Source: Tubulanus polymorphus (lineage: Eukaryota > Nemertea > Palaeonemertea > Tubulaniformes > Tubulanidae). Taken from it: a stretch of DNA of 64,000 bases. The notes below the pieces were generated by a model. It did no database searches and was not told the origin of the DNA. It worked only from the letters and a program-made list of their open reading frames with translations. Positions within the stretch are counted from its first letter, which is position 1, and every line of letters begins with the position of its first letter. A program made the position numbers and the translations under genes. The stretch is from assembly GCF_964204645.1 (NCBI RefSeq), contig NC_134026.1, positions 26,988,650 to 27,052,649 on the forward strand, given 5' to 3'. Below, one piece after another: positions 31,016-48,383 of the stretch.

Positions 31016-32274
31016 ATATCAACATTAACATATGAATCTAGATATGAAAACAGTTTCTCTCGGATTTCTTTCGTTAGCGAATTCCCTTTTATATTCAAAT
31101 AATTAAGCACTTTAAAGTTTTTGAAATAAACGACAACATTTTCATTTAAACTGATAGAACATTTGGATATATTTAGGCTTTGTAAATGAGACAAACATTG
31201 TAGAATATTGGCTAAACCTAATTCAGTGACTTGTGTACAGTCGGACATATTAAAATGCCTCAATTTGAGATTAAAACGACATATATGATGAATGGATACA
31301 TCGGTAAGACAAGTGCTCGACAATTCAAGCACTTCTAAATTTGGAAAGAGCTCCCAAAGACTGTCATACAATGAACCAGTTAACCGATAGCAACCATTGA
31401 GTTTTAATGAGATTAATTTTGTACGAGTTCCGAGACCTTTTACAAATGCAGCAGTCACAGCTGGTGTGTAACTGAGATCTAAATGAGTAAGTTCAGGTAT
31501 GAAGTTCTCATCGAGCCATGCTTTGTTAAATGGCAAACACGATGATATGATAGTCAATTTTTTCAACTTGATTGGAAAACAAGAAGAATTCACGGACTCA
31601 AGATTAGCATGCGACATACATAGTTCCTGAAGATTAGGGCAACGTTCCTGAAGCTCCTTCAACATAGCATCGCTTAGTGTTGCTTTCTTCCACTTTTTGG
31701 CACCAACTGCAACAAAGTTGAAGGATGAAAATTGAAATGAAATATCTAACGCAAGTGTTGGTTACTTCATGCAACCTCCATATTTACCTTTACTATACAT
31801 AAAGCCTTTCATCTTCAATGACAAAAGACAATCTGAGAAATGAGAACGAACGAATGTCCACAGCTTTGTCAGGTTTAGTGGGTGGTCCATTAAATCGACA
31901 TGTTTCCATAGTTTTTTATCATGAACTATTCGTCTCCATTGGCGACAAACTCTACGATCGAAGCAAAAAGATATTTGAATTCATTGACGACACTACATAG
32001 AACGGACGATTTCAGGCAAGAAGGCACAGTCAAAATAAAGTCATTGACATTTATTTGATTTGAATTGAATAATTTGTGATACTCAAAATAGCAAAATAGT
32101 TTATAAAATCAATATCTGACGAGTATGAGCTGTGACAACTAAATTATCTATAAGGTAATCATTATCAGTTGAATACCTGCATATTCTACAGCGATCCTTA
32201 ATGGGTAAATGCTTAAATATGTCTAAAATAAGGTTTTCTGGCAGATTTTGTATGCAAGCCGGAGCAGCCGCCAT
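31000..32274 (-). CDS. FBXL12: F-box/LRR-repeat protein 12 homolog
   Basis: Exons 32177-32274, 31788-31951 and 31000-31706 give 322 residues, close to human FBXL12 (326). The F-box covers about residues 10-53 (NLPENLILDIFKHLPIKDR, CRVCRQWRRIVHDKKLWKHV) and aligns well with human FBXL12. It is followed by a leucine-rich repeat array (CPNLQELCMSHANL, LTHLDLSYTPAV, LISLKLNGCYRLTG, LEVLELSSTCLTD, LRHFNMSDCTQVTE, LQSLNISKCSI). FBXL proteins are substrate receptors of SCF ubiquitin ligases, the F-box binding SKP1 and the LRRs the substrate. The ATG at 32274 has a good context (AAAATGGCGG). An in-frame ATG 14 codons upstream is less likely. The gene is divergent from the membrane-ORF and C9orf72 unit. 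Confidence 0.9.
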
Positions 32275-32974
32275 TTTATGATCACATGACAATAAAATGT
32301 ATTCCTTCAAATTCATTCCATATTATTTTCACAAATAGTGGCTAACGTTATATGCAACTGAGCAACAGTCATTTTTAAGAGAATTATATTTCAATAGGCT
32401 GATATCCGAATAATAATAAACTTTTTATCACGGGGATATGTTTACTTAAGAAAGTCAATAAATAATTTAAATTGTATCGCTCTTAGGTTAATGTGGGATT
32501 CGAACCAAAAAATAACGAACACAGAACCAACATCAACCAGAATGTTGACAGTTGTTCATTTGGGTTTAATAAATAAATTTCACTTTAACCATCGTAATTC
32601 TTTCACCAAAAAAATTCTTTTGATTTGTGAATCTGAAGACATTTGCAGAGAGAACTGTGTTGTTTAATAAGTGCAGCGTCCACAGGTAAGATACATTGGC
32701 AGATACAGCAATCTGACCAGGTCACAAAAAAGGCAGCAACAAGAACAAATGAACGAACAGGCTGTCAAAAAGGCAACTGCTGTCAAAAAAAGTTGTCCAT
32801 TTTCTTCAGTGTGAGACTTTTTGTTAGTGAAGTACCAGTGGTAGCCTGCGATTACTGCGGCCTCAATGCAGTAAAACTTCACCTCAAGTAATCCTATGCA
32901 AATATAATTTGTTTCATTTCTAGGGTGATGATGGACGAAAAGGAATTGACGACGTGAGTATCTACGAATTTGAG
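32275..32974. promoter_or_regulatory. Divergent upstream region between FBXL12 and the C9orf72 unit
   Basis: 700 bp between divergent start codons. A likely acceptor (TTTCATTTCTAG) ends at 32923, and a donor-like CCACAGGTAAG near 32683 could be the exit of an untranslated first exon of the plus-strand transcript. No convincing coding exon is seen. Confidence 0.4.
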
Positions 32975-33238
32975 ATGCGAATGGATTGGACCGCTCAGGT
33001 GCTCAGTGATGACGCACTCGTCGTCTTATTCATAAACTATCTATTCTTTTCGATGATCATACTTTTATTCATCAGTTTCGTGATATTGTTAACGCAGACC
33101 AGCACGCACGTCGACACTCATTCCATCCTTTCGTTACTCGTCGTTTGTTTCATGTTGATGAACATTATCATAGCGAATTACCTCGTGTACGCGATGCAGA
33201 TTAGTCGTGATATGAAACGTCTTTACAACCGCCGTTAA
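32975..33238 (+). CDS. Two-helix membrane microprotein, possible upstream cistron of C9orf72
   Basis: From ATG 32975 the frame encodes 87 residues: MRMDWTAQVLSDDALVV, a hydrophobic span (NYLFFSMIILLFISFVILL), a short polar loop (TQTSTHVDTHS), a second span (ILSLLVVCFMLMNIIIANYL) and a basic C-terminus (DMKRLYNRR). The two spans make it a convincing hairpin membrane protein. Its TAA ends 27 nt before the C9orf72 ATG, and no splice acceptor or obvious promoter lies between, so both frames probably share one mRNA. The frame stays open upstream to a TAG at 32921-32923 that is also an acceptor AG, so a longer spliced N-terminus is possible. Its GC-rich codons resemble the first C9orf72 exon. Family unknown. 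Confidence 0.6.
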   Translation: MRMDWTAQVLSDDALVVLFINYLFFSMIILLFISFVILLTQTSTHVDTHSILSLLVVCFMLMNIIIANYLVYAMQISRDMKRLYNRR

Positions 33239-33265
33239 TGACTCTGCGCGATCACAACAACGAAC

Positions 33266-35670
33266 ATGGAGATCGAGACTTGTACGGGACAGATTTTTCC
33301 GCCCGCCAAACCGATGAAGCTGGAATTTCCGGCGATGAAAAATACCGTTCGCAAAATTACGCCGAATAAAAAGGTCGTCGTCGCCGGTAAAGATGATTCG
33401 AGCGACGTTTCAAAATCCGACGCCGAGATTTTGTCGCTGTTGAGTCCGAGTAGCGTTTTCGATACTTCGAAATTACCCGAATCGATCGAGCAATTGATTC
33501 ACGGAGTCGTCCTCAGTTGCTGGGATAATATCCTCGGGCCGAAAGTTCACCACGTGTGGACGAATGAAAAACTGCACACGTTCAGTCCGTCTGTTTTGTC
33601 GCAGATATCTAGTCATACGTTGAACGGAGAAATTTGCCGAGATTCCACTGATTCAGCGATTGATGCGAAATTCTATCGTATGTCCGATATAGAATTCATA
33701 GTCACCGCATTCATATTCACTGCTAAAATAAATACAGGACTAGCCATACATTCATTGGCTATCATTCTGCCCGAATCTGTAATGCAAAAATATATACCTT
33801 ATCATAATTTGTGCGTGGAGTACATGAAACGACATGTTGCCAAACTAAGGATACTCTTAGCTGTAGTAAGTAGGCCTAATAGATCAGAGATAGCTGTTTG
33901 GCATATTAGTCAAATTACTATAGACAGTACTGGTAATTTTATGTATTTTGTATGAATTTCTTGCAGGATTCTAAAGATGTCGTTTTAAATGATTTCTCAC
34001 TCTACATACATGACCTCGTCGAATTGCTCAATTCTTTACAAGTGGCTGGATTGCCAGTTAGTATAAGTGTAAGTAGTCTCTTGATACCTAATGTATGATA
34101 AATGAATAGAAAAATTCAAGCGTTCGGATTGCCGAGTTCAAACATTAAGTTACTAGAAACTCGATCGAAGATCAATGTTTTACCTAATGAAACCCAGCCA
34201 TGTTTGTTTCTTACAGTCTTCTGATACAGCATTTCATCCAGAACATAGCTTTGAGGACAATTTCTTGAAGAAAGCGATCGCATCTCATCTCATCACCTGT
34301 GGTCATTCAGTCGTCATAGGAAAAGTACCGAGCAGAATAAATCTAGTGAGTATCAGATCTTTTACGGATACTTTACACACATGTAAAGAAGCACTTTTAA
34401 AATTTGATTATTATGTTCTTCAGATGGTGTCAACTCTCGGTTTATTTTTATCTCCAAAAGAACGCCTGTTATCTCGATTTGTGCAAGAGGATCAAGGATG
34501 GAATTATTCCTCGCATCTTGCTGTACAAGGAATGATAATTGTAAATGATGTATACAATCATCCGTGCAACATTTTAAAATGTGAAGATTTGGATTTCTCA
34601 TTATTTTCCACTTGTATCTATAGGCCGACAGTAAGAAGAAAAAGTTATACGTCAGCGAAGTATTAAGTGGCACATATCCAACTACTGTAATTGACATGCC
34701 AAAGCGTGAAGTTTCTCTAATGCCTCCATGTCATGAACATAATGTACGCAGGTACGAGATGTTGAGAAATGAACTCACTTGTTTATGGTTGCAACAGAAA
34801 GAGCCCGCTAGTGGAATCTATCCTACCAGGTAATTACAACTCGAGATCGATTATTTCTGTTTTGATCCATTTGATCGAAAATTCATTCTAATTGGCATAT
34901 TGAACGCTGCAGACTTTTCTCGCAAAGGATTGTTATGAAAGGGTAATTATTGATACATCGCTGTGCATTTTTTACCCAGAAATATTTGTTGTGACATTTT
35001 GATTTTATCATGGCACCGCATGCAGATGTAATAGAAATTATGTACTTGAAGTTTTTATAAGCTTTAGATTTTATTAATCTAGATGAATTTTTAAACAGCT
35101 GATGTTGTTGGCTTTCCATGTGTTTGCTCAGATTTAAAGTTCAAACTATGAATTCTGATGTTATTTTCAGTACAATATTTCAACCTGCAGATTTCAAAGA
35201 AACGCTAGTCAGTAACTTTTATGATGAAGTAAGTGAGGAGCTGTTTTCACTGAAGCTCATATATTTCAATTGAATTACATTTGCATAACATTTTTCTCAT
35301 GTTTCATCTTTAGTTGCAGCCCCTTCAACCATGCTGTGGTATGATAGAAGAGTATGTGGAACAATTTACTAAACAGTTGGATAGGAAAGCATTGGCCCTG
35401 ATAAAATTTGCTGAATCAGAAACGTAACTGTTTTATGCGATTTAATGATATTGATTTGTGCAGTTATCTCAAAGCAATGATATTGACTATGATTTCTCGT
35501 TTTGCAGCCAAGAAGGCCGATATCCCTTCAAAACCAACACCAAGAAATTGCGTCAGTATCTGTGTTTACCTGAAGAGGGAGATTTCCGAATTGTTTTGGC
35601 AACAGCAGAAAAACTAAAACCTGGCATGCATTCTGTGATATTTGGAGATCCAAGTGCCAACTGGACATAG
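33266..35670 (+). CDS. C9orf72: C9orf72 homolog, DENN-domain Rab regulator
   Basis: Eight coding exons (33266-33865, 33967-34068, 34217-34345, 34424-34540, 34624-34829, 35171-35228, 35314-35423, 35508-35670) give 494 residues. The human protein is 481. Diagnostic stretches are CWDNILGPKVHHVW, HTLNGEICRDSTDSAID, SHLITCGHSVVIG, GLFLSPKERLLSR, YPTTVID, MPPCHEH and AEKLKPGMHSVIFGDPS, in the same order as in human C9orf72. The protein carries a divergent DENN module and, in vertebrates, works with SMCR8 and WDR41 as a GTPase-activating complex in autophagy and lysosome regulation. The N-terminus before the first DENN strand is about 50 residues longer than in human. Two introns are very short (78 and 83 bp). 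The start ATG has a strong context (GAACATGG). Confidence 0.95.

Positions 35671-39158: not shown

Positions 39159-48383
<9,225 letters not shown>

Follow-up and report, generated by a model that had tools for sequence, protein, structure and literature searches.

A putative two-pass membrane microprotein encoded directly upstream of C9orf72 in the nemertean Tubulanus polymorphus

The window analysed here, a 64,000-nucleotide stretch of contig C2 in the 268 Mb genome of Tubulanus polymorphus that was searched, carries a C9orf72 gene on its plus strand. The first segment matches the PF15019 profile with an E-value of 4.7e-13, and the matches run in order over consecutive exons, reaching 88.7 bits together. 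When spliced conceptually, the segments 33266-33865, 33967-34068, 34217-34345 and 34424-34540 stay in frame. C9orf72 is a single-copy gene in this genome; a receptor-type tyrosine kinase gene with a Frizzled domain lies near the locus. Directly ahead of C9orf72 is an 87-codon open reading frame (ORF), translated as MRMDWTAQVLSDDALVVLFINYLFFSMIILLFISFVILLTQTSTHVDTHSILSLLVVCFMLMNIIIANYLVYAMQISRDMKRLYNRR and hereafter called the microprotein. Its coordinates in an earlier note on this DNA proved correct: the frame is followed by 27 nt and then by the ATG of C9orf72. The plus-strand features are:

32316..32685, plus strand: probably the promoter region plus a non-coding exon 1, both belonging to the microprotein/C9orf72 unit; only the 3′ boundary (donor at 32685/32686) is placed, the start of exon 1 being presumed.
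32686..32923, plus strand: probable intron 1, a 5′ UTR intron, with the acceptor aatttgtttcatttctag/G at 32923/32924 (score 8.6).
32928..32957, plus strand: uORF of 9 codons (MMDEKELTT), 5′ of the microprotein; its second ATG (32931) is in a strong context.
32975..33238, plus strand: microprotein ORF of 87 codons, with two predicted transmembrane helices and the basic C-tail SRDMKRLYNRR.
33236..33241, plus strand: tandem in-frame stops TAA TGA, the TAA overlapping the ATG at 33238 (TAATG).
33238..33369, plus strand: 43-codon frame in another phase, with a weak ATG context, overlapping the C9orf72 start.
33239..33265, plus strand: intercistronic gap of 27 nt, with neither AG nor poly(A) signal.
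33266..33865, plus strand: first coding segment of C9orf72 (PF15019), with its ATG in a strong context and an N-terminal extension ahead of the conserved WDNILGP region.
33365..33370, plus strand: AATAAA within the C9orf72 coding sequence, 127 nt past the microprotein stop codon.

The gap reads TGACTCTGCGCGATCACAACAACGAAC. It contains no AATAAA and no AG, in agreement with the earlier note, and thus offers no splice acceptor between the microprotein and C9orf72. The acceptor between cistrons that marks a spliced-leader trans-spliced operon is accordingly absent from 33239-33265. A Ciona-type spliced leader was not commoner than its control, and COX1 was looked for without a match. Two more claims of that note hold: the TAATG opens its 43-codon frame out of phase with C9orf72, and the C9orf72 ATG stands in the strong context aacATGG. 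The 43-codon frame is probably not a gene. Four features go beyond that note: the common phase of the two frames with the tandem stops that divide them, the 9-codon uORF, the acceptor at 32923/32924 and the AATAAA at 33365.

The two frames are only 27 nt apart and share a phase, which chance alone would give in one case out of three. This might mean that C9orf72 has, or once had, the upstream frame as its N-terminal membrane anchor, either connected through readthrough of the stop codons or severed by the tandem stops. We find this hardly credible: TAA TGA disfavours readthrough, the region 32999-33387 has no donor over the cut-off with which to splice around the stops, and C9orf72 has its own well-placed ATG.

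Upstream of the pair, a donor CAG/GTAAGA at 32685/32686 has the top score of the region (11.2 in a simple splice-site score). Together with the acceptor at 32923/32924, it suggests that a non-coding exon 1 is spliced to an exon 2 beginning at 32924. The putative intron has no codon periodicity (GC by codon position 0.38/0.38/0.42). In this splice model exon 2 carries, in order, the 9-codon uORF, the microprotein and C9orf72. The human C9orf72 gene likewise begins with a non-coding exon 1 followed by the start-codon exon, exon 1 being a prediction in T. polymorphus; we know of no membrane-protein ORF directly ahead of its start codon. The microprotein frame is open back to 32924, right at the acceptor. 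As the spliced model has an in-frame TAA in exon 1 and no ATG in between, 32975 (or 32981) is the likely microprotein start, and GC by codon position ahead of 32975 (0.65/0.29/0.35) is unlike that of the microprotein.

Upstream of the unit lies a neighbour on the minus strand, an F-box/LRR gene (the F-box part recognised by eye) whose ORFs end at 32316. The gene begins near there and has an intergenic region in common with the microprotein/C9orf72 unit, so that the plus-strand transcript probably starts between it and 32685. The start sequence of the F-box/LRR gene, AAAATGGCGGC (minus strand, within 32240-32330), looks like a start-site motif of the YY1 type and is adjoined by an E-box-like GTCATGTGATC.

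We then consider whether the microprotein frame is coding. Its GC content by codon position is 0.40/0.26/0.61, with a chi2 of 21.4. No dinucleotide shuffle out of 5000 attained this value; 644 non-coding windows got no higher than 12.8, and 400 shuffled ORFs of at least 75 codons no higher than 16.9. The frame ranks second among the 85 ATG ORFs of the 64 kb window, where the other top-ranked ORFs are mostly recognised or likely exons. Real exon segments of equal length in the window have a median chi2 of only 4.4, so that the microprotein signal stands out even among coding sequences. Both halves of the frame are periodic, for which reason an internal splice from 32954 to 33076, with loss of most of the first helix, is unlikely. 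The two hydrophobic spans announced by the earlier note are real (19-residue Kyte-Doolittle peaks of 2.67 and 2.33), and two such windows occur in only 2 of the 400 shuffled ORFs.

The length of the frame is weaker evidence. An ATG ORF of at least 87 codons arose in 43 of 5000 shuffles of 32924-33265 and in 186 of 5000 shuffles of 32686-33265: length alone is moderately unusual, and it is the codon-phase signal that exceeds chance. The local background is GC-rich, with 64% GC at fourfold sites of the microprotein, 76% at those of the 5′ part of C9orf72, and 52% in the spacer. The second positions of the microprotein, at 26% GC, differ from fourfold sites plus spacer (Fisher p 0.0003). Such low-GC second positions, as hydrophobic residues require, argue for selection on the peptide, by a codon-position argument that is distinct from a conservation test. 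They bear on the idea of a purely regulatory uORF, in which the act of translation tunes C9orf72 and the peptide itself is functionless. uORFs ahead of main frames are common, this length appears by chance in about 1-4% of shuffles and no relative of the peptide was found; however, periodicity and low GC2 in a GC-rich background are unexpected without selection on the peptide, and we regard this idea as improbable.

The earlier note had also pointed to GC-rich codons common to both frames. Synonymous GC3 is indeed 0.57 both in the microprotein and in C9orf72 33266-33490, versus 0.29 in the other exons of the window. A codon log-likelihood trained on those other exons fails to favour the microprotein frame (−0.117 per codon; −0.012 for the first C9orf72 exon), in our view because of its GC3-rich codons and hydrophobic residues. 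An actin-type codon preference was rejected: the shift is one of general GC3, not of the actin set, and beyond it the microprotein codons are unlike those of actin genes, with frequent ATA and TTA, in a rough count for which one locus (L024) had been taken from the wrong strand. Three actin coding segments lie within 8 kb at G000:C2:1348518-1356311, two on the plus and one on the minus strand, with others on C4; the plus-strand segments that were read continue upstream as GVMVGMG beyond a probable intron. Altogether, composition makes it very probable that the microprotein is a real protein-coding frame.

The predicted product is an orphan two-pass membrane protein of 87 residues, with no recognised family. 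Its AlphaFold2 model, built from the single sequence, has two helices (residues 5-41 and 48-86) that form a hairpin (pLDDT 78, pTM 0.51); the best Foldseek match of the model in the PDB (E 4.4) is meaningless. The basic C-tail suggests, by the positive-inside rule, that the C-terminus faces the cytosol. Profile searches of Pfam and NCBIfam gave only sub-threshold matches to unrelated membrane families, a PDB sequence search gave nothing of note, Rfam gave no match, and scans of viral and prokaryote contigs found none either. The genome search returned no paralogue, only the microprotein itself plus two weak matches. Both candidate paralogues were judged to be chance: one at C2:31664694 (45% over 31 aa, E 4.2) appears intronic, in what is presumably an EDRF1-like gene, and one at C8:13442203 (E 0.1) has a frame interrupted by a stop and no codon periodicity. 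In size and two-helix hairpin the microprotein resembles the small two-pass ER proteins VMA21, PIG-Y and DPM2. Unlike them, it has no match to their Pfam models up to E 10, and each of the three matched elsewhere in the genome.

The PIG-Y match is itself next to another gene. At locus L014 (G000:C2:24684275-24687400), about 821-1640, a short frame matches the PIG-Y C-terminus (PF15159, over the cut-off) and starts 47 nt past the stop of an intact frame that we take to be RPC9/CRCP-like. Immediately ahead of the RPC9 frame there is an N-terminal segment that is PIG-Y-like and finishes in a donor-like sequence; RPC9 may therefore be nested in a same-strand intron of PIG-Y, or transcripts may be common to both.

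A CpG- and GC-rich block extends from the putative exon-2 acceptor, at 32924, across both frames to about 33700. Nowhere else in the 64 kb window are the CpG count and the CpG observed/expected ratio (about 2 in the block) as high. The maximum of CpG density falls in 33201-33500, near 33300, and the putative intron 1 is CpG-poor. A second CpG cluster, at 47701-48100, lies upstream of a minus-strand ROR-like kinase gene. The peak near 33300 could mark an internal start site, in which case the locus would consist of two abutting genes, one with microprotein mRNAs that begin near exon 1 and may end at the AATAAA at 33365, the other with C9orf72 mRNAs from a CpG-rich promoter inside exon 2, past the microprotein frame. 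Such an arrangement would also spare C9orf72 the 11 ATGs that precede its own in exon 2, the one at 32931 being strong, and that would hinder its translation from a long mRNA. Yet codon composition may account for the block, since it starts at the exon-2 acceptor and extends over coding sequence; moreover, no T-rich or GT-rich element is obvious 3′ of the AATAAA (AAAGGTCGTCGTCGCCGG). We hold separate start sites to be rather unlikely.

On balance, we lean slightly towards a genuine small two-pass membrane protein that has an exon, and at least part of its transcripts, in common with C9orf72. The earlier note had read the locus as a possible dicistronic mRNA, and its interpretation is borne out in part: composition gives good support to a real membrane-microprotein gene, and the acceptor-free gap within one compositional block supports a putative shared exon; a single dicistronic mRNA for both frames is plausible. 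Transcription would start upstream of 32685, a non-coding exon 1 would be spliced to exon 2 at 32924, and ribosomes would translate the microprotein from exon 2. The same transcription unit would also yield C9orf72, through reinitiation or leaky scanning, or else shorter transcripts starting within exon 2 would supply it. Since the gap lacks an acceptor, an mRNA that holds all of the microprotein frame must continue into C9orf72 unless it ends early, for example at the AATAAA. The 11 upstream ATGs make reinitiation a demanding route; they imply that C9orf72 needs it or leaky scanning, or else that shorter 5′ ends exist. What the sequence itself shows is the intact frame with its coding-type periodicity, the two hydrophobic helices, the acceptor-free gap and the common composition; exon 1 and its splicing, a shared mRNA, translation of either frame and selection on the microprotein peptide are inferred from it.

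In the human PYURF-PIGY pair the membrane protein is the downstream one, unlike the order of microprotein and C9orf72. Human transcripts with a conserved small protein ahead of the main protein are known, among them SLC35A4/STREMI, PYURF-PIGY, MIURF-MIEF1 and ASDURF-ASNSD1 (PMC13303939); the main text of that paper makes no mention of C9orf72. The upstream ORF described here carries a coding signature, one of the marks of uORF-microprotein bicistronic genes. In form it resembles human SLC35A4/STREMI (SLC35A4-MP), where the 5′ UTR of a conserved main gene encodes a small protein of about 100 residues with two transmembrane spans. However, STREMI is a partner of MIC10 and needs its GxxxG motifs (PMC13303939), whereas the T. 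polymorphus microprotein has not a single glycine, hence no GxxxG in its helices as in MIC10/STREMI-type hairpins, and is followed by C9orf72. PYURF-PIGY is similar in yielding two short proteins, one of them two-pass, from one transcript (PMC13303939), the single transcript at the C9orf72 locus being putative. It differs in that the microprotein has no match to the PIG-Y model and the genome's PIG-Y match is elsewhere, beside the RPC9-like frame. A literature search in a partial library showed, among the titles listed, no dicistronic or uORF-bearing C9orf72 of this kind. A uORF microprotein with a main protein is thus a known kind of gene; with C9orf72 as the main protein it appears to be new.

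Should the pairing be confined to one lineage or merely positional, the locus is just another bicistronic gene. The action of the C9orf72 complex at the membrane that it is recruited to is discussed as open (PMC8213707). The microprotein could also serve C9orf72 specifically, as a membrane partner or anchor expressed with it from one mRNA, but we consider this very unlikely; were it so, C9orf72 would be brought to membranes by a genetically linked recruiter, in a way that differs from the WDR41-PQLC2 route.
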